Shown here: in pieces, positions 7,765-34,253 of the stretch
Numbering within the stretch: position 1 is the stretch's first letter
Layout: each line of letters opens with the position of its first letter
Origin: a virus
Length of the DNA stretch: 34,720 nt
Strand: one strand, 5' to 3'
Virus record (IMG/VR): IMGVR_UViG_3300027906_000065
Span: 1 to 34,720 of that record
The notes under the pieces: generated by a model
Database searches by the model: none
The model's input: only the letters and a program-made list of their open reading frames with translations
What the model was told of the DNA's origin: nothing
Position numbers and translations under genes: made by a program

Positions 7765-7787
7765 AGTACAACAATACACTATGATAA
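7758..7787 (-). promoter_or_regulatory. Perfect inverted repeat over the DNA polymerase start codon
   Basis: TTATCATAGT (7787-7778 on the minus strand) and ACTATGATAA (7767-7758) are exact reverse complements, separated by the 10 bases GTATTGTTGT. The polymerase ATG (7764-7762) lies in the second arm, so an mRNA hairpin would sequester it. A 6-codon frame (7798-7778) starts just upstream and ends in the first arm. A DNA operator is an alternative. Confidence 0.6.
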
Positions 7788-7825
7788 GCAAGTGTTCATT
7801 TTAGAAATCTAATTGTAAGTCGGGG

Positions 7826-10800
7826 CTACCCAGCAGCTTCCGTTGCGACAGAGTGAGCTTGAGACACCAGGTCGAGTGAAGACTCATATGCCCCGTAAGC
7901 ATCAAGCTGGACTAGTTTAAGCTCAGTTGTAAACTCACCTTGTGATAGAGAGTGTGATATCCCAGTTACCGCGTATACATTGTCGACAGTTGTGCCAGTA
8001 CCAAAATCAATAAAAAATTGTTGACCAAAATTCACCATAGGGCAACCAAAGATAGTGACACTAACTTCAACTGGTGATACCCTTAGTGGTAAGCCTGCGT
8101 TAGCCTGGCCGGCTGGAGTCCTTGCCGTAGACTGTCCTGATCTCATCATGTGTATTGTTGAAAGTTGTGGATCATTCATGCTACTAACACTAGCAGATAT
8201 GACACCTGAATATTGGGCACCATAAACGATACTAGGCATACTACTTCTAATAAAGTTTTTGATTGCAGAAAACCCACCAGCAATCTTCCATGCAGGAGGT
8301 GATGACTCAGGAACTGCCTCAATAATGTTAGCAGTTGTCATTGCCTTCTGTAATTGCGCGGCGTTCGTTGCGCGGCGCTGTTGGGCTGCAGCACTAGAAC
8401 CTGACTCACGAATAACATTTCTAGCCAGAGTATTGAGAGTCCCCATACTTCCTCGGCGGCTAGCCTTTAAAAGATCTTGCATCGTACTATGAGGACTACA
8501 TGCCTTATCATAGATATGAATCTTTAATATTGTTTGTTGAGATGCTGTTAGATCTGGATTGTCATTCATCGCGGATACTACTTCGGTTGACATAGCCAGT
8601 CTAGGCTTCTTAAATTTAAGGCGTTGCTCTGGCCGCGTATTTGGATCACCTGTATAAGCCTGCCGGAGGCGCTTTTGTTTTTCGCCATCTAATGCAGTCG
8701 GGTTATCTTCATAGTTTGCCTTAAGCTTCATACCACCCTCGCCATCAGATTGATAGAGGTTTGACATCCCGTATGCAGGGTTATGTGACTTGCTTATAAA
8801 CTTGCTTTGAAGAATACCCAGAAACCGGCGGATTGGCACAAATGCTGTTTCATTGGTGGCATCATTAAGGTGGCTTTTAAACTCAGAGAAATCTATTGGA
8901 AATGAAGAGATATTCCTGTTACACATATATGATGCATATTCATTAAACGTATAGTAGAAAACCTGTATTTCATCAAATTTCTCTTCAGCTAACAAAGGAG
9001 CAATAACATACGTCGACATAAGCTTGCCTAATGATACATACTTTTTTGGAAATGCACGGGCGAAACGGTTGGCTACCGAATTCCCCCCAAGCGCTGCCTT
9101 GGCTTTTCTTTGAAGCGACCTGTTCCAGTCTTTAGACGTAGCGAACCGAGGGTCGGCGATATGCTGTCTAACTTTGCAGTGGCGACTAACTTCGGTTCGT
9201 TTATTCCTTAACTTGAATTCGCACTTATCATTAAGGATAGGTTCCCACCATGGATCACCAGAATTAGGTGATTTAATCAAATCTTCCTTGAGTGCCAAGG
9301 CATTTTCAATTGATTGTGTGAGGGAAGCTACAACACCACCGTGTGTATTACCATTTGCAGTGCCCAGTAATTCATCAAGGGCACTTACAAGCTCCGTTGT
9401 AGCCTCACCGGCGGTGCCACGGTTGATGGCTTGCCTTTGTTGGCGTCTCCATCTTCTCATTGCCTGCTTAGTCTGACGGTCCATGTTGGAAATTCCACCT
9501 GGACTGGTTACAGATGCTAGCCATGTCTCACCAGAAACATCGGATGAGCCTCCCTCATTAGGGGGACTGACCTGCCTTCTTAAATGACGGATTATACCGG
9601 ACAACTCTTGAAATCGTTTAAGCTTATCACCGACACCTGGACCTTTTGATATATCACTTGAATTAAAGGCCATGGCGCTTGAAGTAAATAGCTCAATAGT
9701 GACTTCGACCTCCCCGGCATCGTTGAAGCTAAAACTAGAGTTTTTAACCTTAAACTTATCCTTTGCACGGCAAGCATCAATAAAAGCAGCAAACGGGTTC
9801 GCGGATACTTCTCCTGCTAAGTTTTGGGCATCAGGATGGCTCCACCCGTATTCTATTAATAATTCTGTTTGCCCGTACATATCTGGGCGAATTAAGTCAC
9901 TGATCTCTGCTAGGCGGGATCGGTCATGTAAGACCAGGCTAATCTCAGCAGTTTTGTGGGACATCATGCCGCCGGTAGGTGTCACTGACAATGAGAAACC
10001 GGTAAGGGTAGCAAGAGGCCGAAACCTATCTATAACTTGAGATGATCTATCCGTGGTTGACGCTGGGTTAGCATCACCACTTATTACAGACATATCCGGT
10101 GATGTCCATAACTCGTCAGCAGGTACCAGAGTTTGAGGGGACGTAAATAACTCCATGCCGGAGCTAGCAATGTTTGGAGGATCATCTGCCGTAGAAGGTG
10201 CGGTATCATCTCTCTCAAATTCAGGGTTTCCCAGTAATGATGCATTAACAGCCATTGTCGTGATCTTTGCTTCATCAGAGTCGGCGGAGGTTGTAGCACG
10301 GCCTCGCAAAAACTGGGCTAAGGACATTGTGCTTATCTTGTCATCAGGCCCTTCAACTGGTGCACGGTGGGTAATTACTTGAACATCTAGGTATACTTGG
10401 CACCTAGACATCTCGACAGTGGGTATATATGAAAGAAATAATGATACAGCGCCAGAATCCTTTGTGGCAGGAGACAAATCGGGATCATTAATTAGAAAAC
10501 ATGAATAGACAGGGGATTCCCCAGACTCAGCACTTGCATTGACGTCGTCGATATCGGCATATTCATCCCACTGGGCCGGTTCATCACCGGCTGGGGGTTG
10601 AGGAGTTAAACTAGTTGTGTGCTGAGTATATACTTTTTCTTCTTTAATGGTCTTTACCAGGGAAGGTATACCATCAAAGTACATAGAGGCAGCTTCAGTA
10701 CCGTGTGATTCCGGAGTGTCTCCGGGGCCGGGTTCTGGAGGAGGGCCGTCTACATCATCAAAATCAAATGCTCCGCTCGAACCCCAACGATCAGGACTAC

Positions 10801-11167
10801 CGGCCCATGGAAGTTTGGCGAACGCATTAGCGTCCCCAAGAAAGGCAGGCTCAAACAATACCTCAATAAACCCACGAATCTCTGCTGCAGTCTTTTCCTC
10901 TGGAATAGCAGCGACTAGTTCATCTATTAAAAACTTTGTAGAGTGTGAACCCTCAGTGGCAGAAAGAAAGAACTCACCAAGCTGGTGGGAGATGGTCTCG
11001 TTTGCCAGGCGCTCGACGGCCGCGGCTTGAGTTGCAGAGGAGTCTTGAGGGTTGGTCTGTTTATCAATCAGTATATTAATAAATGAACTCTTTGATCGGA
11101 TACCATAATATACCCCTAACTCAGAAATTACTGCTGCTAACCTAGTATACCTTCTTGGGTCTGACAT
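7826..11167 (-). CDS. Baseplate hub-like virion protein
   Basis: This 1113-aa protein shows the pattern of large-phage baseplate hub proteins. Around residues 385-500 lies a beta-rich region with AEISLVLHDRSRLAEISDLI and TELLIEYGWSHPD. The C-terminal ~70 residues contain VSVTIFGCPMVNFGQQFFID, then a GTGTTVDNVYAVTGISHSL segment and a repeat-like TTELKLVQLDAYGAYES, typical of a hub beta-barrel end. The N-terminal ~300 residues include a Pro/Gly-rich acidic linker (DVDGPPPEPGPGDTPESHGTE). The start ATG overlaps the stop of the LysM-like gene (TAATG), indicating coupling. No lysozyme catalytic motif is seen. The hub role rests on these segments and the baseplate context; the exact T4 counterpart (gp27-like or another) is uncertain. 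Confidence 0.7.
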   Translation of the reverse strand: MSDPRRYTRLAAVISELGVYYGIRSKSSFINILIDKQTNPQDSSATQAAAVERLANETISHQLGEFFLSATEGSHSTKFLIDELVAAIPEEKTAAEIRGFIEVLFEPAFLGDANAFAKLPWAGSPDRWGSSGAFDFDDVDGPPPEPGPGDTPESHGTEAASMYFDGIPSLVKTIKEEKVYTQHTTSLTPQPPAGDEPAQWDEYADIDDVNASAESGESPVYSCFLINDPDLSPATKDSGAVSLFLSYIPTVEMSRCQVYLDVQVITHRAPVEGPDDKISTMSLAQFLRGRATTSADSDEAKITTMAVNASLLGNPEFERDDTAPSTADDPPNIASSGMELFTSPQTLVPADELWTSPDMSVISGDANPASTTDRSSQVIDRFRPLATLTGFSLSVTPTGGMMSHKTAEISLVLHDRSRLAEISDLIRPDMYGQTELLIEYGWSHPDAQNLAGEVSANPFAAFIDACRAKDKFKVKNSSFSFNDAGEVEVTIELFTSSAMAFNSSDISKGPGVGDKLKRFQELSGIIRHLRRQVSPPNEGGSSDVSGETWLASVTSPGGISNMDRQTKQAMRRWRRQQRQAINRGTAGEATTELVSALDELLGTANGNTHGGVVASLTQSIENALALKEDLIKSPNSGDPWWEPILNDKCEFKLRNKRTEVSRHCKVRQHIADPRFATSKDWNRSLQRKAKAALGGNSVANRFARAFPKKYVSLGKLMSTYVIAPLLAEEKFDEIQVFYYTFNEYASYMCNRNISSFPIDFSEFKSHLNDATNETAFVPIRRFLGILQSKFISKSHNPAYGMSNLYQSDGEGGMKLKANYEDNPTALDGEKQKRLRQAYTGDPNTRPEQRLKFKKPRLAMSTEVVSAMNDNPDLTASQQTILKIHIYDKACSPHSTMQDLLKASRRGSMGTLNTLARNVIRESGSSAAAQQRRATNAAQLQKAMTTANIIEAVPESSPPAWKIAGGFSAIKNFIRSSMPSIVYGAQYSGVISASVSSMNDPQLSTIHMMRSGQSTARTPAGQANAGLPLRVSPVEVSVTIFGCPMVNFGQQFFIDFGTGTTVDNVYAVTGISHSLSQGEFTTELKLVQLDAYGAYESSLDLVSQAHSVATEAAG

Positions 11168-11474: not shown

Positions 11475-14400
11475 TTATTCATCAGAACTGGTTTCTTCAT
11501 TAGCAGCTTGGTTGCCATCTCTGTATGCTATATTCTGGGTTCTAACAGTCGAATTTGAGTCTAGAACATTTTGTTCATGCATATCATTCCCCACTAGACT
11601 GTGGACAATCTCACCGACAGGATATACAGGTGCCCGATTGAACCCGTCAGAGTCCAGACCTGGTGGCAAGTCATGGATAACCGCAAAGGACATGCTTACT
11701 TTTACAGACTTTGGAGCCCGGCTGCCTAAAATCCCAGTTGCCCAAGTTGAGTCACCATAACCATATGAAAATGAAGTTACTGCACATGCCAGGCCGCGGC
11801 CGGCTGTGGATTCAAAGCTCCTTACAACTGCATTACTGGCAGCACTAAAAAAGCTGGCTAGCGGCGATTCAGGTGGTGCAGAGGTGTAGTCTGGTTCCTC
11901 TTCGACCTCAATGTGTGGGTTGGCAAAATCAGACCACCGCGAATCAGGTCTTAAAGATGCATGCGTGAGATATACTTCATCGCCTTCGTAGGCCCCATAC
12001 ATAATATTTGCAGAGTATACATATTCGTTTGGTTCACCTTCACTAATAAAAGGAATAGCCCCAACAGCTCCTGCTCCCGTCACTTTAACATGCTGACCTT
12101 CATATAATGCAATACTTCCGGTACCGTCAGTTTTATGGTAATTACCGCGTTGGGTGACTGTCGCAACCGCCTCATCCGGGAGGCCGTTCGAACGGCTGGG
12201 GATTGGCTCGGCAGCAATGGAAGCACGCCACTGTAGCGCCGGAGCTTGGCCGAGCCATGGGCCGACGGTGGTGTCGGGTTGAGGGGCTGCACTCACGGCT
12301 TCCGCCGGCGAGCCCGTAATGTTAAATGCAGATCCTTCCTGATCCGGATTGTTAACCCCAAAGATCCTTGCAAGATTAAACTTACTATAGTTAGATCTAA
12401 TAAGATCACCAACCCTTAACCGGATAAGAGGTGAGGCAGCCGGTACCTGTGAAAAAGGCATAATGTGGCCTTTCAATCCTGCTGGATCCTTAACTGCAGT
12501 ACCCGGGGACCACTGAGGATATATTAATGTTAACAACTTATTTAGTTGGAACCACATTTGATCAAAATCATCTGGGTTTGTAGCAGCAACAGTGAATGAA
12601 ATAGATACCGATCTAGTTGTCTTAGAAAAAATCTGGACAGGATCCATTCTGCCAAAGCCACCTACCGAATTCCATTCCGGAGAATAGTCATCAGAAATAT
12701 CATCAAGAAATGCATGAAAAGCGATAATCTCATTGGTTCGGAGATCATGAAAGTAAAAAGGAACATATTCAGAATCGAGCCTGTCCTCTATTGCCATGAC
12801 CTCCTCTTTCGAAAACCTCGTTGATCCGTCGGCCGGGGTATATGTATGATCTGGAATAACAGGTAGCGTGCCAAACTGTGCTGCAGCTGTATTGAAACTT
12901 GTAGGCATTAAGTACTGTGAAGGAAGTGCAGATGCCCGCAAGACAGATCTTATATTATAACTAGAGGGATCGCTGGGGTCTGAATAACCTACCCTGCTTT
13001 TAAATTGTCTGGTAAGCGGATTTTCTGGGTACTTATCTGGATCATTATTTAGTGGGCTGAAAGCATAACTGTCACCAACTAACATAATATCACCGAGCTT
13101 AGCACATAGGTTTATAAGCTTAATAGACTTCACTTCTGAGAATGAGGTTAATAGAGCAATTGCTACACCTATCTTATTCACAACGCTGTTGTTACTGTCA
13201 GTTAGTTCCTGCCCTAATACAATTAATTGTTCTAAATCTCTATTACATGTTCTAAATATATTTGCAGCATAGCCGGCTTGACCGTTCGAACTCATAAGGG
13301 CTTCTGGAAGTGCGAACCAGTTTACTCCATCCCAGTTAGAAACACCAAACAATGAACCCATCCCATAAAAGACGGCTTTTAAGTAATACTTAACTGCGGC
13401 GCCGGCTGGCCCTGTTGCTGTATTGGTACCTTCAAGGTGAGGTATACCAAACGCCTCCAAAAAGAACTGGCGAATGGCATTACCAATACCCCCTCCAGGA
13501 GGTAGTTGCTTTTTACCCATAGGAAGAGTTCGTGGATCGAAAGGGTTTCTTGCCCGCGGGCTGGTGGCAGGAATAAGCGCGGCAAGAAAAAATAACAGCG
13601 AAAGTGCAAGGACCTGGACTGCTAATATACCGGCACCAACAATTGCGGTCGTTATCATTCCTAAAGGTAGCGTACCAGTAAATTTCTCGAAATATGAGTT
13701 TAGGTGGCCATATGTGTCGTTTGAAGACAACTCATTTCTTACCTTAGATCCTATGCTACTGCCACCATTATCAGCCAGGATATACCCCCCGCTTGTCTTA
13801 GTGTAAGGTGTAAAATTAGGTGCCTTTAGCTCGTTAACGCTTAATGACAGGAATGGAAGCCCCATTTGAACTTTAGGACTTGGGTATAATGCAGCTAATT
13901 CTTCACCCGGGCCATGGCCAGTCCCGGCAATCATTATATCTCTGCCTATCTTTTGTAGCTCAGAAACAAGTATCTGTTCGGCACCGGGATCATAACGTCC
14001 CATCTTTTTTTGTAAGCTACCCATAGAACCGTCTGCAGCGACCGAAAAGGCACCATCATCAACATAAGGTGAACCCTTAATAGGGTGGAAACGATTATTC
14101 TGTAGAATCTTTGCAGTAGCTTGTTGGATTACGTGGGGCCCAGCAGAGGATGCTTTTGTGCGTGTACCAGCCTTATTAAATACGGTACCATGCCCAGGAA
14201 CTTTTGACAATAGTGTATGGCCCTTGCCACGCTCTGTGCCTACACCTTTATTATAGATAACACCTTCATTGTTTTTAATGAAGGGATTGATTTCCCCTGT
14301 TGAGGATGATCCTTTATAATCGCTAACACCTGTGAGTGTATAGTCGCTTTCCTTTACCGCACCGGCATCGATGACTTCATCAACAAACGTTGCATGTGCA

Positions 14401-14687
14401 CCGGCACCATTATTCGCACCACCTCTCTGGAAGGAGTCAACTATGGGGGGAGAGCCCTCAGGATTTCGATGACTAGCAGCAGGTGTGGATCCAGGCTTAA
14501 GATTATAATGATTAACTTTAGTTACTTCACTAAGATAATCGCCCAGTTTTGTCCTGGTGACCTCCTCTGGTCCGGACTCAGGAATGTCATCACCCTCCAT
14601 GAATGTACTTCCATTGCCCGTGGGTTTCGGGGTCAGGGGAGGGCCATGGGTGCCTTTCTTAAATGGTGGGTGCTTTGGGCTTGACAT
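11475..14687 (-). CDS. Large baseplate/tail structural protein with a membrane-like segment
   Basis: This 1070-aa protein is not assigned to a named T4 gene. Residues 1-330 are Gly/Ser/Thr-rich and low in predicted structure. A long hydrophobic stretch lies at about 342-374 (GMITTAIVGAGILAVQVLAL and on through LSLLFFLAALIPA). Residues ~640-770 form a compact domain with YVPFYFHDLRTNEIIAFHAF, VGGFGRMDPVQIFSKTTRSV and SFTVAATNPDDFDQMWFQLN, followed by LIRLRVGDLI. The C-terminal part (SYGYGDSTWATGILGSRAPK) is beta-rich and ends acidic. Domains with 'FGRMDP...TTRSVSISF' occur in virion proteins of large marine phages, as I recall, and the neighbours are baseplate genes. The stop is followed after 11 bases by the LysM-like gene. 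Confidence 0.65.
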   Translation of the reverse strand: MSSPKHPPFKKGTHGPPLTPKPTGNGSTFMEGDDIPESGPEEVTRTKLGDYLSEVTKVNHYNLKPGSTPAASHRNPEGSPPIVDSFQRGGANNGAGAHATFVDEVIDAGAVKESDYTLTGVSDYKGSSSTGEINPFIKNNEGVIYNKGVGTERGKGHTLLSKVPGHGTVFNKAGTRTKASSAGPHVIQQATAKILQNNRFHPIKGSPYVDDGAFSVAADGSMGSLQKKMGRYDPGAEQILVSELQKIGRDIMIAGTGHGPGEELAALYPSPKVQMGLPFLSLSVNELKAPNFTPYTKTSGGYILADNGGSSIGSKVRNELSSNDTYGHLNSYFEKFTGTLPLGMITTAIVGAGILAVQVLALSLLFFLAALIPATSPRARNPFDPRTLPMGKKQLPPGGGIGNAIRQFFLEAFGIPHLEGTNTATGPAGAAVKYYLKAVFYGMGSLFGVSNWDGVNWFALPEALMSSNGQAGYAANIFRTCNRDLEQLIVLGQELTDSNNSVVNKIGVAIALLTSFSEVKSIKLINLCAKLGDIMLVGDSYAFSPLNNDPDKYPENPLTRQFKSRVGYSDPSDPSSYNIRSVLRASALPSQYLMPTSFNTAAAQFGTLPVIPDHTYTPADGSTRFSKEEVMAIEDRLDSEYVPFYFHDLRTNEIIAFHAFLDDISDDYSPEWNSVGGFGRMDPVQIFSKTTRSVSISFTVAATNPDDFDQMWFQLNKLLTLIYPQWSPGTAVKDPAGLKGHIMPFSQVPAASPLIRLRVGDLIRSNYSKFNLARIFGVNNPDQEGSAFNITGSPAEAVSAAPQPDTTVGPWLGQAPALQWRASIAAEPIPSRSNGLPDEAVATVTQRGNYHKTDGTGSIALYEGQHVKVTGAGAVGAIPFISEGEPNEYVYSANIMYGAYEGDEVYLTHASLRPDSRWSDFANPHIEVEEEPDYTSAPPESPLASFFSAASNAVVRSFESTAGRGLACAVTSFSYGYGDSTWATGILGSRAPKSVKVSMSFAVIHDLPPGLDSDGFNRAPVYPVGEIVHSLVGNDMHEQNVLDSNSTVRTQNIAYRDGNQAANEETSSDE

Positions 14688-21807: not shown

Positions 21808-21917
21808 GATATTTTCTCCATTAAGTGTATAGCACAAAGCTACTAATATTCGTCAGTATGAATAAGTATCCCATGGACTAAAACGACTGTAAAATAATTT
21901 ATAATCAGTTCTTGAGA

Positions 21918-21990: not shown

Positions 21991-22479
21991 TCAGTACTGA
22001 AGTACGCAGTTATCGAAGCGGATTGTTAATGAAATCTCTGTTGGGTCTTCTCCACCGTAATCCAGGTCACCGAATGACGCGGAAGTGAGGAAACAACCCT
22101 TAAGGTCCCAAAGTTCAACAACCGTTCCAACAGGGTCCAAAAGTTTGAGTTGGCAATCACGCTTGTAGAAATCAGCATAACCAGCACGACCTGATACAGA
22201 TTCGAAGTGGGTTCGAACCCATTCCATTACCTGCTGTGCACCTGAAGGTGCGATTGGATCGTGTAAGGTGCAACTAATTGCATCAAACTTTGTTTTACCT
22301 GCTAAGTAACGCGTGGAGTTCATATAAGAGACCTCCTGCTCAGCAGTGTTGATGGTGGGGCGGTTTGCAGTCTTCATTAAAAATGCATCTAAACCCTCAA
22401 CCGCGAAAACCCACCTAAACTTGCGTTTAGGCTCAAACTTATTGGGTAGCATATCAGTGACGGAAAGTGTCTCAGCCAT
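21991..22479 (-). CDS. Tail tube protein, T4 gp19-like
   Basis: This 162-aa protein matches the tail tube family in length (T4 gp19 has 163 aa) and layout. It has an N-terminal RKFRWVFAVEGLDAFLMKTA strand, the EQEVSYMNSTRYLAGKTKFD segment, a helix MEWVRTHFESVSG preceding ADFYKRDCQLKLLDPVG, and the closing strands WDLKGCFLTSASFGDLDYGG and ISLTIRFDNCVL. Tube subunits stack in hexameric rings inside the sheath and form the DNA channel. AGGAG lies 9 bases before the ATG. It directly follows the second sheath gene and has its own terminator, as expected for a product needed in many copies. Confidence 0.93.
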   Translation of the reverse strand: MAETLSVTDMLPNKFEPKRKFRWVFAVEGLDAFLMKTANRPTINTAEQEVSYMNSTRYLAGKTKFDAISCTLHDPIAPSGAQQVMEWVRTHFESVSGRAGYADFYKRDCQLKLLDPVGTVVELWDLKGCFLTSASFGDLDYGGEDPTEISLTIRFDNCVLQY

Positions 22480-22534
22480 GTCTTTTAACTCCTATCAAAA
22501 AGATTCTATTCTAAATATTCTGCTACTGCAGAAA

Positions 22535-25500
22535 TTATACTTCCATACCAGCGTTTGTAACAACAAAGTCTAGAGAGATGAACTCTACTGTTCTTGTTGG
22601 TTGCAAGAAGATTTTACCTCTGACTGTATTGTTTTCAATATCAGCCTGTGTGGTGGTGGTCGTGTCAATTACAACTTTAAACTTGTCTAGACCCTGCTGT
22701 TGCTGGATTCTTTGCAGAATTGGATTAACTGCTGCGGAGAATCTTCCCAACGTTTCCTCTCGGTTAGGTTCGAATAACAAGCCATTACCAACTGTACGTA
22801 CCTCACGACGAATTTCAATAAGAAGTCGTCTAACATTAACTCTATCAAGGGCGGATTGCGCTCTTTGTAATGTCTTCTGTCCCCAAACAACCACACCAGG
22901 AGTGTGAGGGAATGCGGCCAGAGGATTGACATCAGATTCATATAGTGTATCAAGGTTTGTGCGACTTAGTTTGACCTGTGTCTCTACAACACTCTTCAGA
23001 GCGCCTCGAGAGAAGCCAGCCGGGGCAAACCATGGATGTGCCATTGAATCATTTAGAGAGAATGCTCCAAGTACCGCAACCGAAGGAGGGCATTGTACAT
23101 TCGTCCCAAGTGCAGGGTCTGTAATTACAACATCGGGGAAGTATACAGCAGCAAATGATGAATCTAGATTTCTACTGTTTAACTCTTCAACCGTAAGATT
23201 AACACTTGGCTTCTGAGTTGAGTAATCAATCATTAAGTCATTATTGACAGCTTTTTCTTCAATGTCCATAATATACATTGCATCGAATCGATCTTCGACC
23301 GCGTCGATTGCATAATCAGTAATCGCTTCATCTCTCATACCTGGCACAGCTAATAACTTAATATCAACGTCAGCCTTCTCAGCCATTACATCAATTGCCT
23401 TTCTAAATGAAGCCACTGTTGAACCAGCAGTTCCACCTTGATTGGCATCGTCCATTTCCCAAACAGCAGCTCTATTAGTAAGTTGTGCTTTTTCAGAATT
23501 TAGAATGTTTGTTCCATCAAATCCACCCTGCAAGAAGAATGAGAACTTCATGTATCTTCTTGTCGTTGAGCTTGAAAGGTCAACCTTTGGATCAAGGAAT
23601 CTGGTACCTACGTCTGCATCGTCTGCGACGGCAACACCTTCGAGCGTTTGCATATCAGCATCCGCCTTCCGGACACCGGCTCTTCGATATTCAGCAACTG
23701 CCCATTGTTTATGGTCAACATTACCCTTTACTTGGGGGTTTGCATCCTGTACAACATTGGGGTTCTTGGTAATAACCTGAATTCTTTCAAGTGAGAACAT
23801 ATTGTTATTGAACTTGTCAGAGTCTAGTTCGGCACCAACGGCTGCACCGGCGGAGTCGACTGGCGGCTTGGCGCCGGCATTGTCTCCAATAGCAGGTTGT
23901 GGTACACCGTCAGATCTAAATGATGGAAAGTATTTGCCATATGATAATATTGAGCTATTGAACTTAACACTATTGTTAGGATTGCCAATGTTGTCCATAA
24001 CCTGGAACATCGTTCCCCAACATAGGGCAGCTTGTACTCTCTTCTTATCACCGGTACCTTGAGCAATCGTCGCCCTCATTGGGACTGGAGGCTCGATGGC
24101 ATCATTAAGGACTGACCCGTTTCCAGCAGCTGGATTACCAAGGTTGTCAACGGCGGACTGTCCACTTTCAAGATAGTGGACACTGTCAGTGTCATTATTA
24201 TGTGATGTGACTAAGTGCTTATAGCCTCTATATCCTAATGGGAGTGCATCGTTTGGTACGGCACCTGAATCGACTTCAGGGGCCATCTCTACCCGAATGT
24301 ACTTAGAACGCTGTGGGTGTATACCATCAACAACTAGTTTTTGTGAACCTGGGCGTTTATCGAAATCATAGTACATGTACTGATCACCAATTACTCTAGA
24401 AATATATCTTTCCGAGTTAGGGTTCAAGTCCAGGCCAATGAATTTCTCGTATACTCTTGGATCAACATCATCGTCGGAGATATCTCTAACGAAGAGATCA
24501 AACCGGCCATGTTCATCACCGGCACCCATCATTACGTTTGAAATTGTAATCTTGAACTTACCAGAACCTGCTGCACCATCATCAAGGGCATGAATCTTAA
24601 ATAGATTCTTAGGTTTGGAGCCGAAGACCTGTGAAATAACCCATGGGGACTTGGCCGTTTGGAACCTGTCCTGGAAGTCTTCATAGTTGGGTGAAGTTGC
24701 TGTACCGTCAGCTAGAAGAACATCAGCATCATGTGGATTGTTTCCTGGCACTAAGAATGCCGCGGCTTGAGCTGCGGCGCCAGCAGTTGCACGACCATGT
24801 GCATCTACCCCTGCAAAAGCAGAAGGAATGTCATAGTGTGTATATACTAAATGGCCTGCATGTTCGAGGCATGAAGGATCCGTATTTAGGATATTCATAA
24901 AATAATCCGGTGCAGATGGATCGAAGCTACAACGTAGTGAGCTTGGATTTGCGCTGGTATTCACATGGCCATTTAATAGAAGTGTAAATCTTTCTTGGTT
25001 GTTTGTTGTTGTAACCTCGCCTAGTGGACCACCATTAACATCGGTTGCGCTGGCTGGAGAAGCCTCCGGAGTCTGGTTACCTGCGACAGTATCGGTACCA
25101 TCAACGGCATCGCCGCTTAAACACCGTAGTGTTGCATGGACGCCCCGGGGGGTCATCAGGACCGCTCGAATAATTGGCGCCGATTGGCTATCAGTATCGA
25201 TTCCCGCGTCCTCCCAAGAGGTATGCTGGGGACCAGATTCAACTGCATCTCCACCACCGGCGAAGTTGTCAATATCCGTAGTGAGTCCAGTTAAGGCGGA
25301 TCCGCCACTAACTGCTGGGTCTGCCGTATCAAAGACCTCTGCATCAACGCCGGCTTGGGATATTCCATCAAAGGACATACCAGCCGGGGTGGCGCCGTCG
25401 GAGTCGGTAACTGTAGGGCCCCCTGGATCACCGGCTAACATTTGAGTTATAGTAACTGCGTTAGACCCATTTGATACTGCAAGAACATCAACTGAGGTAT

Positions 25501-27367
25501 CATTAATTACGGTAGCAAGTTCGTCTACGATATCAGGGATTGTTGATTCATCAACGCCTCCCTCGAAGGCGGTGGGCGATACTGGATTTGTAATTGAAGC
25601 GTCCGCGAAGGCGGAATCAGAGATTGTCGCAGCATTACCAGCAGCACCAGCAAGATCATGATCAATTTTTACATTGTCTCCATCAAAGGATGCAGTAGCA
25701 GCGACAGTCGCGGCGTTGATTGCATCTCGTAAATGTTCCTGTGCCGAAGTGGTTAAAAAGTCTGCATGGCTAGTATTAATTGTGACATTATCGCCGGCGA
25801 CTACATAGGCAGCCGGATCCGCATCGGCAGCTACAGTAATTATACTTGCAGTAGCTCCGGAGTCAGTGACTGTAAATGTGTCACCATCTACCAGGGTTGA
25901 TACAGCACCTAAGACGATTGTAATCGATGCGATCGCTTCTTGGCGGGATGTGACCTCGTTCGCGGCCGGAGTATCAGAGTCAACGAATGTTATAACTTGA
26001 CTGGCACCTGCAACATCCCCTACTAGCATGGTGTCCCCTGGATCCGGAGTATCGGCTGCTATTGATACACTTTCAATTTGATTAACCATGTCATGGGCGA
26101 TTGCGCCCGTAGCATCGGCGTTGCCGGCTACGCCAGTAACTGTTTGAGTAGCTACCAGTGCGTCCCCGTCAGCGGAGAAAGCTAGCTTTGCAGCAAGCGG
26201 GGTTGTTGCGTCAGCAACTGCCTGGACTGCTCTAGCGGCTAGCTCTGCAGCTGTAGGGCCATCGCCACCGTTTATTAGTTGTGAACCACCAGCTGCTCCA
26301 GTAACTGTGATTGAGCCGTCGGTAACTGCGCCGCCATCGACTTCATCTCCAGGAACCCCGAACCCGTTCATCGTAACGACAATGTCTGCGTCCCCGGGGA
26401 CTGCGTCTTCCGAAGTCATCTGGAAGCCTAGTCCAGCTCCTCCAACAGCATGAGCAAGATTGATTTCAGCATCTAATCGCGCTGCAACCTGGGCTTCAGT
26501 TAATGCATTAATATCAATGCTAGCAACAAAGTCATCACCATCGGCTGCAGCCGCGCTGTCTCCAAGGCCGTCATTAAAGTCGATTGTTAGCTTATCGCCA
26601 TTAAGATCAGTGAACTGGATTGTACGGCCGGCTGTAACTGCACCGGCGACTGTAATTGTAGCAGAAGATCTTGAACCAATGGAAACAAATAAGTTTTTAT
26701 TGTCTTCTAGATCTGCAAGATCGTTTGATGTCCCTGTGCCGGCGGATGATTTGTTATTTGATCCTTCATGGAACCATAACGTTGCAGAGGTACCCTCAGC
26801 ATCAGTGAAACGTAGGCCTTCACCTCTTGTACCAAGGGCGGCAACTTCTGCCATGCTCCAAGCTACATCAAGGTTAACCTTTGCAGCTGCAGCAGCTTCA
26901 CCATCGCTATTATATGGTTCGCGCATAAGTGCACCGAGGAAGTAGGTTCGTCCACTTCCCTGTGTGCCGTCGTCGAAAGCCATGGGGTTGTCATCCAGGG
27001 CTCCACCGGATGGGTTACTAGCATTCTGTGGTAATTGAGCACCAACAACAAAACCGGCATTCGTTACACGACCTACACTATCTCGTTTCTTGGCATCACC
27101 AACACCTAGAACTCGAACATATGTCCCTGCCCTGGCGTTTTTCATCCACTCATTCATAGCAAGGGGGCCAAACTTTTTACCATCTGTACCTCCAAACTCA
27201 GCCACGAAGTCAGCATAAGTGGCTACTGTGATTGGGACAAAAGCTGGTCCCTTTTTAGCAGTACCAATTACGCCAGCAGGTATACCCTGAGGTCTAATTG
27301 CAGTTGGTCCGCTTAAGTCAATTTCTCTGGTGCTAACGCCAGCGCTCTTAAATGTAAGTTCAGCCAT
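22535..27367 (-). CDS. Tail sheath protein 2, giant paralog with repetitive insertion
   Basis: This 1610-aa sheath protein is the paralog of the gene just upstream. The N-terminus (TREIDLSGPTAIRPQG, then PAGVIGTAKKGPAFVPITVA) and the C-terminal ~250 residues (HPWFAPAGFSRGALKSVVET, then WGQKTLQRAQSALDRVNVRR and LLFEPNREETLGRF) are classic sheath segments of the kind involved in subunit linking and contraction. Residues ~230-710 are an insertion of Ala/Asp/Gly/Thr-rich beta-like modules absent from the other copy. The rest of the central region aligns in order with sheath 1. AGGAG lies 8 bases before the ATG. At 2.4 times the length of T4 gp18 it should form a sheath, or part of one, with a large outer layer. 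Confidence 0.9.
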   Translation of the reverse strand: MAELTFKSAGVSTREIDLSGPTAIRPQGIPAGVIGTAKKGPAFVPITVATYADFVAEFGGTDGKKFGPLAMNEWMKNARAGTYVRVLGVGDAKKRDSVGRVTNAGFVVGAQLPQNASNPSGGALDDNPMAFDDGTQGSGRTYFLGALMREPYNSDGEAAAAAKVNLDVAWSMAEVAALGTRGEGLRFTDAEGTSATLWFHEGSNNKSSAGTGTSNDLADLEDNKNLFVSIGSRSSATITVAGAVTAGRTIQFTDLNGDKLTIDFNDGLGDSAAAADGDDFVASIDINALTEAQVAARLDAEINLAHAVGGAGLGFQMTSEDAVPGDADIVVTMNGFGVPGDEVDGGAVTDGSITVTGAAGGSQLINGGDGPTAAELAARAVQAVADATTPLAAKLAFSADGDALVATQTVTGVAGNADATGAIAHDMVNQIESVSIAADTPDPGDTMLVGDVAGASQVITFVDSDTPAANEVTSRQEAIASITIVLGAVSTLVDGDTFTVTDSGATASIITVAADADPAAYVVAGDNVTINTSHADFLTTSAQEHLRDAINAATVAATASFDGDNVKIDHDLAGAAGNAATISDSAFADASITNPVSPTAFEGGVDESTIPDIVDELATVINDTSVDVLAVSNGSNAVTITQMLAGDPGGPTVTDSDGATPAGMSFDGISQAGVDAEVFDTADPAVSGGSALTGLTTDIDNFAGGGDAVESGPQHTSWEDAGIDTDSQSAPIIRAVLMTPRGVHATLRCLSGDAVDGTDTVAGNQTPEASPASATDVNGGPLGEVTTTNNQERFTLLLNGHVNTSANPSSLRCSFDPSAPDYFMNILNTDPSCLEHAGHLVYTHYDIPSAFAGVDAHGRATAGAAAQAAAFLVPGNNPHDADVLLADGTATSPNYEDFQDRFQTAKSPWVISQVFGSKPKNLFKIHALDDGAAGSGKFKITISNVMMGAGDEHGRFDLFVRDISDDDVDPRVYEKFIGLDLNPNSERYISRVIGDQYMYYDFDKRPGSQKLVVDGIHPQRSKYIRVEMAPEVDSGAVPNDALPLGYRGYKHLVTSHNNDTDSVHYLESGQSAVDNLGNPAAGNGSVLNDAIEPPVPMRATIAQGTGDKKRVQAALCWGTMFQVMDNIGNPNNSVKFNSSILSYGKYFPSFRSDGVPQPAIGDNAGAKPPVDSAGAAVGAELDSDKFNNNMFSLERIQVITKNPNVVQDANPQVKGNVDHKQWAVAEYRRAGVRKADADMQTLEGVAVADDADVGTRFLDPKVDLSSSTTRRYMKFSFFLQGGFDGTNILNSEKAQLTNRAAVWEMDDANQGGTAGSTVASFRKAIDVMAEKADVDIKLLAVPGMRDEAITDYAIDAVEDRFDAMYIMDIEEKAVNNDLMIDYSTQKPSVNLTVEELNSRNLDSSFAAVYFPDVVITDPALGTNVQCPPSVAVLGAFSLNDSMAHPWFAPAGFSRGALKSVVETQVKLSRTNLDTLYESDVNPLAAFPHTPGVVVWGQKTLQRAQSALDRVNVRRLLIEIRREVRTVGNGLLFEPNREETLGRFSAAVNPILQRIQQQQGLDKFKVVIDTTTTTQADIENNTVRGKIFLQPTRTVEFISLDFVVTNAGMEV
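25238..26680 (-). repeat. Repetitive, G+C-richer insertion in sheath protein 2
   Basis: About 480 codons hold four diverged modules of one type, each a helix followed by strands with a DGDxVxxTxxxAGxAGN-like core. Examples are AAKLAFSADGDALVATQTVT with GVAGNADATG, ATASFDGDNVKIDHDLAGAA with GNAATISDSA, and DVLAVSNGSNAVTITQMLAG with DPGGPTVTDSD. A first, weaker copy contains RLDAEINLAHAVGGAGLGFQ. One sampled line (26281-26340) has 35 of 60 G or C, against 26 of 60 in a sampled sheath-core line (22801-22860). Module limits are approximate. Confidence 0.65.
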
Positions 27368-27415
27368 TGTGTTTTGCTCCTACCTGTTCCAAAGCTTGTT
27401 TATTATAGGTATTCA

Positions 27416-30400
27416 TTACTCGAACATTACGCCGCTGCGAGTGATGATAAAGTCGATTGCGATAAATTCGATTGCTCGAGTTGGTACCACAACGATTCTA
27501 CCGTTTAATCGGTTACTTTCATAATCCTCTACAGAATTATTTGTGTCGTCCATCACAACCTGGAATGATTCGATACCAGCCTGTGCTTGAACTAATGCTA
27601 ATAGAGGAGTAACTGAACCAACGAATCTTGCCCTTGTTTGCGGCGTGTTTGGTTCGAAAAGAATGTTGTTTGCAACACTAACGATTAGTCTCTTCACTTC
27701 AAGAAGCATGCGGCGTACATTAATTCTATCAAGTGCAGATTTCTTCATCTGTAGTGTCTTTTGCCCAAAGATCACGAATCCAGCATTTGGGAATACTGCA
27801 ATCGGGTTAATCCTTGCATCATATAGGGTATTTCTATCACCAGCAGTCAACCTAGTTGTAACGTTAGATACCATCTCTAAGGCACCTCTGTTGAAACCAG
27901 CAGGTGCGAACCAAGGATATGATACCTTATCATTAAACCCAAGCGATGCAATCCCAGCAACTGTGGCGGGGACTCTAACTTGGAGGTTATTGATTGGGTC
28001 ATCGATCCAGACGTCTGGGAAATATGTTGCTGTGTAGTTGTTATCAAGTGCTCGACCCTCGAACTGTTCAGCAGTGTATTGGACATCCGACTTCTTACCA
28101 TGCTGACTTGGTTCACCTAAGAATAGGCGACCTTGTTCTTCATCATAATACGGGATATCCATCAAGTAAATGGCCTTTGAGTAAGACTTAACTCTTTCAG
28201 CTGCAAGGTCAGTAACTAGCGAGTCTCTGATACCTGGGACTGTTAAGATGTTTGTATTAACAGTCATTCCGTCAGTCATCATATTAACAGCTGTTCTGTA
28301 AGAAGCAATTACATTGTTTTTCTTACCAGAGCCAGAAGTATTATTGACCTTACCAACAACGCCTGTACTACCTGCACCCGCTGGTGCATCGTCAAAATGA
28401 ACCAGCCCGTCATCGGTGAACTCTGCATGGGCCTTACCATATAGCATAGTACCATCAGCTGCTGTTCCAGTTTCTGTAGATGCTGATCTGTCATTCATTG
28501 CAGCAACATCCTTATCTAGAACATTGAGACCATCAAACCCTCCGTAGAAGACTGTCGTAAACTTCGCATAGTCGCTAAAGCGGTTGAATGCAATCTTGTC
28601 ATTGTGAACCAACGATGCCAATGTAAGGCGATCGCCATGAGCCCCAACGGCATCATTAATTGCATAGGTTGTAGCATCAGGGGTTTCGTTTCTCATGTAT
28701 ACAGCCTTGGCCATTACGATACTAGAAGGATCGGTTAGGTTTGTGCTAATACTTTCCGCTACGGAATCCTGATCATGCAGCTCATGGAGAGCAACCTTTG
28801 CAAGAGAGAACCTGTTATCACCTAAAGCATCTGCTTCATCTTGCGATGTTATAGTGCCAAGTCCCTCAATACCTTGAAACTTTGTATATGCCTTAATAAG
28901 TGGATTAGGCGAGGACGATACGTTACTGTTTAGTACTGCACTATCTCCTGCTTCTCCGCGAGTTGGGCACCGCTCGAACTTTACACCCCAGTAAAATCTG
29001 GAGTCCGCACGTTCGTTTGCACCAAGGTGACCAGTATAATCTTGATCAATTGGAACTAAGGGGTCTGTACCAGCAGATACACTTCCTCGGGTACATTTAA
29101 ACCTTAAGGGAAGGGGTGGAACTAAGGAACCAAACAGGGTGTCACCTTCGTGAACCTGCGCCGTGGTACCGACATCCCAAAGTTGTAGCCTTGAGTCTCC
29201 CGCCGGGTCCGTATCTTGGAATCCTGATGGCATTACTCTTGTCTGTACGACCGGTATACCTTTAAAGCCAAATGGAAGTACATCCTTTGGAACACATGCA
29301 TCGCCTGAGTCAACTTGCGAATTCATAACAATGCGTATAACAGCACTTCGGTTCGGGTACTTTCCGGAGATGACTAATCTTCGTTCATCATCGTCCTCTG
29401 CGTCAAAGTCATAGGCGACGCTGTAATCACCGATTTGCTTAGCAATATACCTGTCGCTCTTTGGATCAAGGTTACATTCTGGATATGCTTCAACAATCTC
29501 TTTATTTAAATCTGTGTCGCTGAATCTTCTAACTTGAACTTCAAATGTTCCATACTCATATGCCGGGTCTGTGCTAGCACGTAGGTTCCCAATGGAGACC
29601 TTGAACTTATCATTTGGATAAGATCCATCGTCCAAAGACTCAAAGTGAAAGAGATCATATTCTGTCTCACCGTATGGTTGTGAAGTAAAAGCAGGGGTCC
29701 GGCTTGTCTTGAATCTTGTATCAAAACGACCAAATAGTTGTGCCCAGTGACGTTGTAGCGCGGAACCAATGTTGATATCAGTGTTCGGCGTCTGCCGGCC
29801 GCGGACTAATGCAATACTGTTGGCCAATGCAACTGGAAGAGAATCATTGACACCATCTGGGCCTGTTGCATCAAGACTGTCGCTAAACGCTCGACCAGCC
29901 ATGGCAATTTCATCTTCAACGGCATAGTCACACCAGAGTACATGCTCATACTCTTGGAACCTGGATTCCTCTGTGTTTAAGACATTTGATATATACGAAG
30001 GTGATGCAGGGTTTAATGACGCAGAGTATACCCTGATACCATTAATACCATCATCCCTTCCGAAGTCTTCATCGGAGGAGGAAAGAATTAACTTAAAGTT
30101 TCCGTCGCCATCTGGAGTTATTAGATCATCCGGATGTGCAAAGGCGCCAGTAAAAAGTGCGTTAACGTCTGTACTTGGGCTAGCAATCATCATTCTAGAA
30201 CCAGAAGGTACCATAATCATTGCGCGTACAAGGTTTACTACACCCAAGGCTGTATTAGCAAATGAGTTGTTGTCAGTAAATACTGGAAACCCCTCTGCTT
30301 CTCGTGGCCGTACGGTATGCTTGGCAACCAAGAATTGTACACCACCCTGGAGATCATCAGCTGTTTCATCACCGAAGTAACTAGCAAAAGTACCTTCCAG

Positions 30401-30766
30401 GTTGGCATCTACGCCGTCATTGACCTGAACACTGAAACCAGCACTCTTAACGACACCATGTTGTGATGTCGCGTCAATTTCGTTTTGGGTTACGTTTGCA
30501 CCAGCACCTAAAACTCTCATATAGGTTACTGCATTTCTATGCTTCAGGAATTCCCTTACAGCATAAGGACCGAAGCGGTCTGCGGCGAGACTACCGAATT
30601 TAGTCTCGAAATCCGCAAAAGATCCTACAGTCACCGGTACAAAGGCGGGCCCTCTTGCTGCAGTTCCGATTATACCTGCTGGGGTGCCTGTTGGTGATTG
30701 CTTTCTTGCGGAAAGGTCTATTTCTTGTTCAAAAAATCCGGGTGATCGGAATGTCTGTTCAGCCAT
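27416..30766 (-). CDS. Tail sheath protein 1
   Basis: This 1116-aa tail sheath protein has the standard sheath ends: EQEIDLSARKQSPTGTPAG and IIGTAARGPAFVPVTVGSFA at the N-terminus, with AVREFLKHRNAVTYMRVLGA after it; then YPWFAPAGFNRGALEMVSNV, VIFGQKTLQMKKSALDRINV and NILFEPNTPQTRARFVGSV near the C-terminus. The central part is larger than in T4 gp18 but lacks the repeat modules of its paralog. Sheath subunits surround the tube and contract on infection. The start has AAGGAG 9 bases upstream. The downstream paralog begins 48 bases after the stop. Being next to the neck genes and closer to ordinary length, this copy may be the main sheath; that is inference. Confidence 0.93.
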   Translation of the reverse strand: MAEQTFRSPGFFEQEIDLSARKQSPTGTPAGIIGTAARGPAFVPVTVGSFADFETKFGSLAADRFGPYAVREFLKHRNAVTYMRVLGAGANVTQNEIDATSQHGVVKSAGFSVQVNDGVDANLEGTFASYFGDETADDLQGGVQFLVAKHTVRPREAEGFPVFTDNNSFANTALGVVNLVRAMIMVPSGSRMMIASPSTDVNALFTGAFAHPDDLITPDGDGNFKLILSSSDEDFGRDDGINGIRVYSASLNPASPSYISNVLNTEESRFQEYEHVLWCDYAVEDEIAMAGRAFSDSLDATGPDGVNDSLPVALANSIALVRGRQTPNTDINIGSALQRHWAQLFGRFDTRFKTSRTPAFTSQPYGETEYDLFHFESLDDGSYPNDKFKVSIGNLRASTDPAYEYGTFEVQVRRFSDTDLNKEIVEAYPECNLDPKSDRYIAKQIGDYSVAYDFDAEDDDERRLVISGKYPNRSAVIRIVMNSQVDSGDACVPKDVLPFGFKGIPVVQTRVMPSGFQDTDPAGDSRLQLWDVGTTAQVHEGDTLFGSLVPPLPLRFKCTRGSVSAGTDPLVPIDQDYTGHLGANERADSRFYWGVKFERCPTRGEAGDSAVLNSNVSSSPNPLIKAYTKFQGIEGLGTITSQDEADALGDNRFSLAKVALHELHDQDSVAESISTNLTDPSSIVMAKAVYMRNETPDATTYAINDAVGAHGDRLTLASLVHNDKIAFNRFSDYAKFTTVFYGGFDGLNVLDKDVAAMNDRSASTETGTAADGTMLYGKAHAEFTDDGLVHFDDAPAGAGSTGVVGKVNNTSGSGKKNNVIASYRTAVNMMTDGMTVNTNILTVPGIRDSLVTDLAAERVKSYSKAIYLMDIPYYDEEQGRLFLGEPSQHGKKSDVQYTAEQFEGRALDNNYTATYFPDVWIDDPINNLQVRVPATVAGIASLGFNDKVSYPWFAPAGFNRGALEMVSNVTTRLTAGDRNTLYDARINPIAVFPNAGFVIFGQKTLQMKKSALDRINVRRMLLEVKRLIVSVANNILFEPNTPQTRARFVGSVTPLLALVQAQAGIESFQVVMDDTNNSVEDYESNRLNGRIVVVPTRAIEFIAIDFIITRSGVMFE

Positions 30767-30851
30767 TAGAAGATTCTCCTTGGACTTATGTCACTCTTTA
30801 CTAAGTATTGGGTACAAAACCAAACTTCTTGATTATCACATGCTCTTAGCA

Positions 30852-32198
30852 TTAAATTTTTCCTAAGTCAGTGGTCAGACCTTCTCGATAGACTGTCTCA
30901 CCTTTTCTTTGGTTTCTAGATTTAACTCTTACAACTTTTGTTATCTTTTTTCCAGTAAATGGATCATGTGTTACACGCAACATTTGTTGAGTGGTCCCAC
31001 TTGCACTAAAACCGCCAACGGAGGCTTCAATATTTTTTGGCGTATCAGCACCCTTTTTGTCTTGGGCGCTGCTTGGCCGGTTATCAACAGTCGAGACAGA
31101 AGCGCCAGGAACATCAACACCTGCTATTCGTAGGGTTGAAGCTATGCCGTCTGCACCGATAGCTTGACCAGGCAGTGGCTCATCAGCCATTGCAAAGTCA
31201 TTTAATATATATGAATTCACATCCGAAGATGCCACGCCCCCGATAACAGGGTCTACTGGAACCCCTGCTGTCTGTGTGGAGGCAAAGCTAGTCTCAGGTG
31301 CAGAAACATACCTTCTTAAACCATTTAATGAACCTGGGAAGTCTGGCATTATCAGATATCCAGGAACAGTAATGTTAAAACTATATTTAACCAAACGCTC
31401 TTCATCAGTAAAGTCATCATAGTTTGTACCAGGTGATATTGATGCATCAACTGTAGCTACAAACCAGTACCCTTTATCGGATTCAATCCGGAATTGGCGT
31501 TGGTGATTATTATGGTATGTCGACATTAGTGCCGATATCATCCCATTCATCTCTTGGGTGTATTGGGCCCAAAAGGTAACCTCATATGAAGCTGTATAAA
31601 ATTTCACAGGAGGCATTTCTATTATTTCAAAAATGTTTGTACCAAGGGTTGCCTTAATATGATTACCAGATCTTGTGTCTTCATCCGGACTTCCATCCAC
31701 CCTGCGGGTCGCTAGCTTTCCATCTTCGGTTCCGTTACCAGAACCATCAGCTAGGTGGCTTGGGTGATCAGCACCGTCTTGAAACTTTAAATTACGAGAA
31801 TTTAATAGTCTCTGGTACTTTGGATCATCCTTGCTTAGTCTTTTTCTTATAACCGCGGGACTTCCCTGCCCTGGACCCATTGCTGCATCCTGGTTTATAT
31901 CAGTCCTCATTATAGAAACTAGAGGTAGGATTAATGCGCCGGCTTTATCCCTTAAGGGTTTCTTGCGGCGAAGTACAGCAAAGCGTTCACCGGTTGCAAA
32001 GATGATTGGAACCCTCTTCATATTATTTTCAAACTCGTAAAATAATGGTATTTCTCCATTAAACAGGTTGAATAATGCACGATCAACGTCTTCGATTGTA
32101 CAAGGGGGAAGGTAATCATCTACCGCGACATTTTGGCCTTCATAGCCAGTTCCACGAGATACACCATCTGAATATGCTTTATCTAGTCTAGTGGACAT
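30852..32198 (-). CDS. Tail sheath stabiliser / tail terminator, T4 gp15-like
   Basis: This 448-aa protein resembles T4 gp15 in layout, though longer (gp15 has 272 aa). KRVPIIFATGERFAVLRRKK corresponds to the gp15 segment RVPITYASKEHF. PPVKFYTASYEVTFWAQYTQ with EMNGMISALMSTYHNNHQRQ corresponds to the strand-helix unit of gp15. RLVKYSFNITVPGYLIMP matches the later strand before its tail. A Gly/Asp-rich insertion lies around 130-180, and the last ~150 residues are low-complexity. gp15 forms the ring that ends the tail and holds the sheath and tube to the neck. The gene is coupled to its predecessor by an overlapping TAATG, and the order gp13-gp14-gp15-sheath-tube is as in T4-like phages. Confidence 0.8.
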   Translation of the reverse strand: MSTRLDKAYSDGVSRGTGYEGQNVAVDDYLPPCTIEDVDRALFNLFNGEIPLFYEFENNMKRVPIIFATGERFAVLRRKKPLRDKAGALILPLVSIMRTDINQDAAMGPGQGSPAVIRKRLSKDDPKYQRLLNSRNLKFQDGADHPSHLADGSGNGTEDGKLATRRVDGSPDEDTRSGNHIKATLGTNIFEIIEMPPVKFYTASYEVTFWAQYTQEMNGMISALMSTYHNNHQRQFRIESDKGYWFVATVDASISPGTNYDDFTDEERLVKYSFNITVPGYLIMPDFPGSLNGLRRYVSAPETSFASTQTAGVPVDPVIGGVASSDVNSYILNDFAMADEPLPGQAIGADGIASTLRIAGVDVPGASVSTVDNRPSSAQDKKGADTPKNIEASVGGFSASGTTQQMLRVTHDPFTGKKITKVVRVKSRNQRKGETVYREGLTTDLGKI

Positions 32199-32872: not shown

Positions 32873-34117
32873 CTACCCTACAATAATCGCTTTGCCGCCA
32901 GGAATTGCCATATGGCTCAAGATCTTTCGCATGTTTTCAACAGTTGCAGCTTCATCCTCGATCATTTTGCTGTATGTCATACCAGCTAAAAGTTCTTTAA
33001 GTTGCTCTTGCATCTGTTGCTTTTCTTCTCTACCTTGCGATATTAAATCTGAACCATTCATTGACAAATCCCCACCGGGGATGGGTACGGAACTAAACTT
33101 TGAACGTACTAAACCAAGAAGCTCTTTTGAAAGAGCCAAACAATACTGTCTTATCCATTGACGGCCCATGCTATTAATCTTTGAATAGCCAAGGTTTCCA
33201 TAGGGGACGTTAGATAAATTACTCACGCCGTAAATGGTGTCCTCTTGATGGTCCGGATTAAAAGGGTCAGGGCTGTATGCAACTCTAACCCATAACTTTT
33301 TTGGGTCCCCAGACGTTGGGGTCGGGAATATTCGTATTTTCGTGCCAGATGTACGGTATGAATAATTTGATCTCCGTACTCTGTTTGATAGTTTCATTTG
33401 ACCACCGCGCAAAATATCTTCGAATATCGGTAAGACATAGAAAACAGTTTCAGGTGTGAAAGACTCAAATGAAAACTCATTATTTAAATAATTGATAGCA
33501 GACGTAGTGTCAAAAAAGCGATATTGGGCTTGGGGAGAGTAATGGCATATTTCCATGATCTTCATCTTTGTCTTTGCCTCTCCCTCTCCAGACTGCAGTT
33601 CAAATATAGAAGTGCCATCCTCATCAACTAACTCTGTGTATAGATCATAATCCTGCCTATTTGTTTCTAGCTGTATTGATCCAGACACACTATTATAGGA
33701 TCCACCCATGCCTGCATCGTGTGCATATGGCGCAGCTCTGCGAAGCATGAACTCAAGATTCTCCATTGGGAAAGTATTCTCTTTTCCACTTGGGCCTGTG
33801 TATAAGACCTTATCTTCACCTTGCCCTGGTTGCCCCTTAACTACCTGCCGAAATGAATCTAAGCTACCGGTGGGGATTCCTAAGAGGTTCATTAATTGGG
33901 ATGAAGCTGCATGTTCGTTAATGATACTGCCATACTCACAAAATGCTTCTTCGAAGCAGGCCCAAACTTGCTTCTTTGTTAGCTCAACACTGAGAATATC
34001 ATCACCTAATTTTCTCTTGACGAAAGTAACCATTGAATCGGCTTCATGTTGAAATGCAACATCTGCATCAAAGAAACCGAAGGGTGTTGGTGACAATGTA
34101 TTAGTAAATGTAGCCAT
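32873..34117 (-). CDS. Neck protein, T4 gp13-like
   Basis: The 414-aa product matches T4 gp13 (309 aa) at both ends. The N-terminal FVKRKLGDDILSVELTKKQV, then WACFEEAFCEYGSII, corresponds to the gp13 [20 protein letters not shown] region. The C-terminal NSMGRQWIRQYCLALSKELL, then VPIPGGDLSMNGSDLISQGR, corresponds to the RWVKDYATALAKELNG and MMLPGGVTVDGQRLIEEAR segments, and even the final IIVG resembles ILVG. gp13 is part of the neck that seals the filled head and receives the tail. A longer frame reaches 34165, but ATG 34117 is chosen because GAGG lies 8 bases before it and the product then begins MATFTNTL. Confidence 0.88.
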   Translation of the reverse strand: MATFTNTLSPTPFGFFDADVAFQHEADSMVTFVKRKLGDDILSVELTKKQVWACFEEAFCEYGSIINEHAASSQLMNLLGIPTGSLDSFRQVVKGQPGQGEDKVLYTGPSGKENTFPMENLEFMLRRAAPYAHDAGMGGSYNSVSGSIQLETNRQDYDLYTELVDEDGTSIFELQSGEGEAKTKMKIMEICHYSPQAQYRFFDTTSAINYLNNEFSFESFTPETVFYVLPIFEDILRGGQMKLSNRVRRSNYSYRTSGTKIRIFPTPTSGDPKKLWVRVAYSPDPFNPDHQEDTIYGVSNLSNVPYGNLGYSKINSMGRQWIRQYCLALSKELLGLVRSKFSSVPIPGGDLSMNGSDLISQGREEKQQMQEQLKELLAGMTYSKMIEDEAATVENMRKILSHMAIPGGKAIIVG

Positions 34118-34253
34118 GTTTCGTCCCTCAGTATAGCTCGTTACAATATTAAATATATAGCTCAAATTCAGACATTCCGCAACACCTTATGGAGCTCGCG
34201 AAAAAGTTGAGTTACTTATGCAAATATTACACACACACGCTCAGAAAAAATTT
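34118..34253. other. AT-rich intergenic stretch before the neck operon
   Basis: Between the terminator and the gp13-like start there is no credible gene. On the minus strand TATATTTAATATTG (about 34155-34142) could hold a promoter -10 region, but I find no convincing partner element. A short ACACACACAC run lies near 34229-34238. Confidence 0.4.

Follow-up and report, generated by a model that had tools for sequence, protein, structure and literature searches.

The DNA analysed here, referred to as the window, is the 34.7-kb virus record IMGVR_UViG_3300027906_000065, and it carries two consecutive tail sheath genes on the minus strand. The upstream copy, sheath paralog A (27416..30766, minus strand), has an ATG start and encodes 1116 aa. 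The downstream copy, sheath paralog B (22535..27367, minus strand), also has an ATG start and encodes 1610 aa. A first-pass annotation had reported two adjacent sheath genes of these sizes, and both reading frames and their positions were confirmed. Both proteins matched the PHROG tail-sheath family phrog_23 (E 6e-54 for A and 1.5e-52 for B) and the Pfam sheath C-terminal domain Phage_sheath_1C (PF17482; 30.4 bits for A and 31.1 bits for B, cut-off 26.9). The subtilisin-like sheath domain PF04984 scored 27 bits in A, under its cut-off of 31.4, and was unlisted for B. It is close to certain that A and B are sheath-family proteins.

In the order of minus-strand transcription, the window encodes an Ad2-like head-tail adaptor (32873-34165, minus strand), a 221-aa gene, a tentative gp15-like gene for a sheath stabiliser (30852..32198, minus strand; PF16724, E 5.8e-5, slightly under the cut-off), A, B, a gp19-type tail tube gene (21991..22479, minus strand; 162 aa; phrog_4542, E 5e-32), a baseplate hub, a tape measure, further genes and replication genes. 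The sheath genes therefore adjoin the tube gene in the order A, B, tube. Two other large genes of the tail region (7826-11167 and 11475-14687, minus strand; 1113 and 1070 aa) gave no convincing PHROG match. Among the replication genes, a 413-aa protein matched only part of a longer phage DNA polymerase family, and an exonuclease-family protein is encoded separately (6550-7791 and 973-1950, minus strand), which is possibly a split polymerase.

Sequence and fold of the two sheath proteins

A and B aligned with 30% identity over 912 columns (E 2e-117) and with 47% identity over the N-terminal 114 residues, a likeness that excludes chance. The first-pass annotation had described shared N- and C-terminal sheath segments. 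The ends are indeed common to both proteins, but the sharing is wider, as homology spans most of the ~1040-residue sheath. Its description of both proteins as oversized applies chiefly to B of the window, and there because of a lineage-specific insert; about 1000-1100 aa is the normal size of both proteins in this phage group, and an ordinary B (~1040 aa, without the insert) is as large as A. Across relatives, the length of A is nearly constant (1005-1302 aa, SD 43), whereas B ranges from 913 to 1794 aa (SD 174).

The excess length of B in the window is mainly due to this insert, which covers residues ~152-712 (~560 aa; 25232..26914, minus strand) and has near-zero occupancy in 25 short B relatives. 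Pfam gave no match to it and PHROG a single weak one (E 0.097). No internal repeat was detected by local self-alignment, although some stretches appeared similar by eye. The insert follows the N-terminal core segment, at the place occupied in T4 gp18 by the outermost domain (residues 98-188; PMC8570332). Judged by this position, it is probably an extension on the outer surface of the sheath. Owing to the B inserts, a sheath subunit can be as long as about 1800 residues.

Structure models were built for A of the window (alignment of 84 sequences) and for an ordinary B from locus L011 (alignment of 75), the latter as a stand-in for the 1610-aa protein. Mean pLDDT was 86.4 and 85.8, respectively. 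For both models, the best structural match was the phage sheath 9f4a (Z 32.6 for A and 32.0 for the L011 B, over ~445 residues). Z was about 32 to the sheath of a Klebsiella phage KP1 variant and 27-28 to the T4 gp18 model, and several bacterial injection-system sheaths matched both models nearly as well as the phage sheaths did.

The N-terminal segment of A (residues 1-22; 30701..30766, minus strand) is conserved and was modelled with low confidence in the monomer. The corresponding segment of B (residues 1-22; 27302..27367, minus strand) is conserved as in A, with residues 1-15 of low confidence in the L011 model. M1, E3, F6, S8, G10, E15, I16, D17 and L18 are common to both families. The last 20 residues of A (27419..27478, minus strand) are likewise conserved, and the same columns are conserved in the last 20 residues of B (22538..22597, minus strand); in A numbering, the residues held in both families are R1097, E1100, F1101, D1105, F1106, T1109, N1110 and G1112. 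Sheaths of known structure have their subunits interwoven through a conserved 'handshake' (PMC8894135). By analogy, we consider the end segments of A and B to be putative linking arms, and the low confidence of the first ~15-22 residues would be expected if the arm folded only in contact with its neighbour. With the core fold and conserved end segments present in both proteins, neither copy looks unable to join a sheath. Consistent with the first-pass view that both copies are intact and retain their linking segments, neither family lacks the putative arms.

These data bear on the idea that A alone forms the contractile sheath while B is a sheath-derived outer decoration for host-surface binding or tail stability. 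The large inserts and the much greater length variation of B would fit such a role, and extra sheath domains have been proposed to aid adhesion or virion stability (PMC9230969). Yet the C-terminal core of B is at least as conserved as that of A (B-B 0.644, A-A 0.609), its end segments are conserved, and ordinary B proteins have no large insert. We therefore regard a purely decorative B as very unlikely.

Conservation and origin of the pair

Virus contigs were searched with A, B and the tube gene as queries, the last of which does not select for sheath genes, and 224 loci of the group were recovered, with some contigs present twice. The A+B pair was found in 182 of these loci, and the other 42 showed one copy with a contig end within 1.5 kb. 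Close relatives with a single copy had been named beforehand as the observation that would speak against the pair; none of the 224 loci obtained with the three queries had a single copy and room for two. All tube genes with a long enough upstream region were preceded by A and then B, the A frame in L229 being a 256-aa piece. Among 20 contigs of 102-242 kb, 18 contained exactly two sheath genes, and L159 and L230 contained three. A T4-type gp23 capsid gene was present in 18 of the 20 long relatives, which identifies the group as T4-related phages, some larger than 200 kb; the window itself stops short of the capsid region and has phage replication genes. The A+B pair is thus fixed in a large and apparently common group of uncultured T4-related phages. 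As neither old paralog was seen to be lost in the whole group, the second copy probably does what the first cannot.

Each locus has one tube gene, and the order and spacing of A and B are fixed, with a median gap of 39 nt. In L129, a 1254-nt gap between A and B is filled by an antisense open reading frame of 426 aa with repeated HGSF/CP motifs (7376-8656, minus strand), which by eye looks like a homing-type endonuclease.

An ATAYNTA motif was found upstream of A (30800..30809, minus strand), of B (27404..27413, minus strand) and of the tube gene (22510..22519, minus strand). In relatives, it occurred in 55 of 92 upstream regions of A (10.9 in shuffles), in 56 of 111 of B (12.6 in shuffles) and in 102 of 142 of the tube gene (16.7 in shuffles), a 3- to 6-fold enrichment. 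The motif was picked by eye from the A and B upstream regions, so that the A and B counts are partly circular and the tube set is the better, though imperfect, test. A further copy lies near 21870 (minus strand), upstream of the hub gene. The T4-type late promoter TATAAAT[AC] was absent within 90 nt upstream of A or B. ATAYNTA may be a late promoter element in these phages; if so, separate dosing of A and B could follow.

The presence of an own upstream motif and ribosome site for each gene would also permit separate control of A and B as alternative sheaths, with only one of them in use at once, depending for example on conditions or host; alternative sheaths had been considered in the first-pass annotation. 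Against this, no locus has lost either copy, there is only one tube gene, gene order and spacing are fixed, and the codon usage described below suggests that both genes are well expressed, being codon-adapted above their neighbours. This universal co-retention makes alternative sheaths an improbable explanation.

To place the duplication, we built a tree from 279 columns of the sheath C-terminal domain with four long rows left out. It recovered an A clade (support 99/96) and a B clade (100/100), and A and B together excluded all single-sheath relatives as well as the sheath pair of Pseudomonas phage PaBG (100/100), so that a shared origin with the PaBG pair was rejected. A larger first quick tree agreed, with a support of only 82 for the join of A and B, which became 100/100 without the four long rows. 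The two clades and their joint exclusion of single-sheath relatives point to a single old duplication, and the tree places the origin of the tandem once in the stem of the group, after its split from the line of Microcystis phage Mel-JY01 and the Flavobacterium immuto phages.

The identity between A and B was 41.8% within the same genome and 41.6% between genomes (101 pairs). Gene conversion between the copies was rejected on these grounds, and A and B appear to evolve as two separate proteins. A comparison of the two families showed 193 columns with one residue common to both and 33 columns in which each family has its own fixed residue. Of these 33, Mel-JY01 agrees with A at nine and with B at seven, so that neither copy simply represents the ancestral one.

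The two genes differ in their later history, as only B was re-duplicated or strongly enlarged. A was never found duplicated, whereas B was re-duplicated in L033, L159 and the L074/L077/L081 group. Some loci also have, after the tube gene, a third or fourth sheath gene that is B-like and in part very divergent (L221:5471-6229, L228:1625-5269, L230:10687-14382, L107:4262-6997 and L033:17041-19518). Decay of either copy into a pseudogene was rejected, since interrupted copies are few and isolated (L062, L101, L105, L181, L218 and L229) and may be sequencing or assembly errors.

Codon usage and composition of the sheath

Contractile phage sheaths are usually regarded as built from one kind of protein. 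Within two-fold codon families, the fraction of codons ending in C was 0.66 for the capsid gene, 0.475 for tube, 0.454 for B, 0.418 for A and 0.33-0.38 for neck, hub and baseplate genes. A trained codon index ranked these genes identically; B exceeded A in 73 of 101 loci, and divergent third copies scored much lower, although the training set of the index included the low-copy genes and the loci are related to one another. The B-like copy after the tube gene in L230 had a codon adaptation much below that of A and B. The tape measure gene, which is expected at few copies, scored like A. The position of both A and B above most low-copy neighbours suggests, with modest weight, that both are bulk proteins.

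Considering all evidence, a two-component sheath in which A and B are both bulk subunits is the best single account, and we give this prediction of particle content from genes about an even chance of being correct. The tree and synteny show that a gp18-type ancestor gave rise to the tandem in a single event at the base of the group, and that both copies were kept thereafter. A and B would jointly form one contractile tail sheath as non-redundant subunits and assemble around the same single tube. Each keeps the core fold and the conserved end segments, through which neighbouring subunits would be interwoven. Their codon usage suggests that both are made in bulk, giving a two-component polymer and not a one-protein sheath with a minor variant. 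B is the more plastic of the two: it takes up large inserts, which probably lie on the outside of the sheath, and gives rise to extra B-type copies, while A remains single and of near-constant length. The mixed sheath or distinct subunits proposed in the first-pass annotation fit this account.

A more specific form of the two-component sheath is an obligate, ordered heteropolymer, for example with alternating rings or with A/B pairs along the strands, around a single tube, fixed throughout this large phage group and with B as an exchangeable outer platform. We know of no solved phage tail with such an ordered two-subunit lattice geometry, and we propose this arrangement only tentatively, as it is rather unlikely to hold in full.

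The principal competitor, which we consider possible but doubtful, is a sheath made almost entirely of one paralog, with the other confined to a specialised ring at its baseplate end or its neck end. A, which adjoins the gp15-like gene, could form a ring at the neck end; alternatively, B, whose inserts are costly, could form one close to the baseplate. Precedent comes from the PVC and AFP particles, which have several sheath proteins, with Afp3, Afp4, Pvc3 and Pvc4 resolved in baseplate reconstructions (PMC8894135; PDB titles). Specialised-ring paralogs, as thought for AFP/PVC, would also fit universal retention with strong divergence, and a subunit of 1610-1794 aa would be expensive in bulk. 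Conversely, the codon usage of A and B exceeds that of genes whose products should be present in few copies (gp15-like, adaptor and hub), and ordinary B equals A in size, so that, as a rule, B is no decorated minor form. The 101 complete A/B pairs represent a natural experiment on the contacts that distinguish the two subunits.

Comparison with other sheath systems

The core fold of A and B and their proximity to tube and gp15-like genes are shared with the T4 gp18/KP1-type sheaths. However, the sheath of T4-type phages consists of one protein of ~660 aa, whereas this group has two of ~1000-1100 aa or more. The closest named sheaths (~37%) are those of Mel-JY01 and the immuto phages, which have a similar gene neighbourhood but only one sheath gene (812 and 709 aa), outside the A+B duplication.

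The first-pass annotation had pointed to extracellular contractile injection systems of the PVC type. Similar to A/B, the AFP and PVC systems have several sheath paralogs (Afp2-4, Pvc2-4) and share the sheath core. In their case, several paralogs occur in one particle. These particles are headless with small sheaths of 354-451 aa, whereas relatives of the window carry a T4-type capsid gene. Together with best structural matches to gp18-type phage sheaths, albeit with injection-system sheaths near, this lends no support to a special link to these systems.

Two sheath proteins in one phage are already known. PaBG has a two-component sheath of gp76 and gp213, both identified among its virion proteins (PMC7412058). 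As in A/B, PaBG and the 'Lupandier' phages have two divergent paralogs that arose by gene duplication. In contrast to the adjacent A and B genes, for ~1000-1800 aa, the PaBG genes are separated by >100 kb and their products have 528 and 547 aa; by the tree, their duplication is a separate one. A report on Alexandravirus (Erwinia phages, 261-266 kb) states that the genome encodes two distinct tail sheath proteins (PMC9686651), a likeness to the A/B group by description only. In the literature on paralogous, duplicated or two-component sheaths, we otherwise found only the injection systems and one general remark that some phages have two sheath copies (PMC9230969); a paper describing an adjacent A/B pair was not found in the literature searched. 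The new features of A/B are the independent origin, the adjacency, the large size, the fixation across a large uncultured T4-related group and the repeated re-duplication of B only.

A further pair was detected in LR756508, a 484-kb uncultured phage with two 824-aa sheath genes ~1 kb apart (L161:3825-6299 and 7314-9788). Both fall outside the A and B clades, one as a long branch of unsure place, and the pair is apparently a separate case. Together, A/B, PaBG, Alexandravirus and LR756508 suggest that two-component sheaths arose repeatedly in large phages. Separately, two adjacent T4-type gp23 capsid genes were observed in the contigs of L018, L019 and L203 (G001, G011 and G017), so duplication of the capsid gene occurs in the A/B group too.
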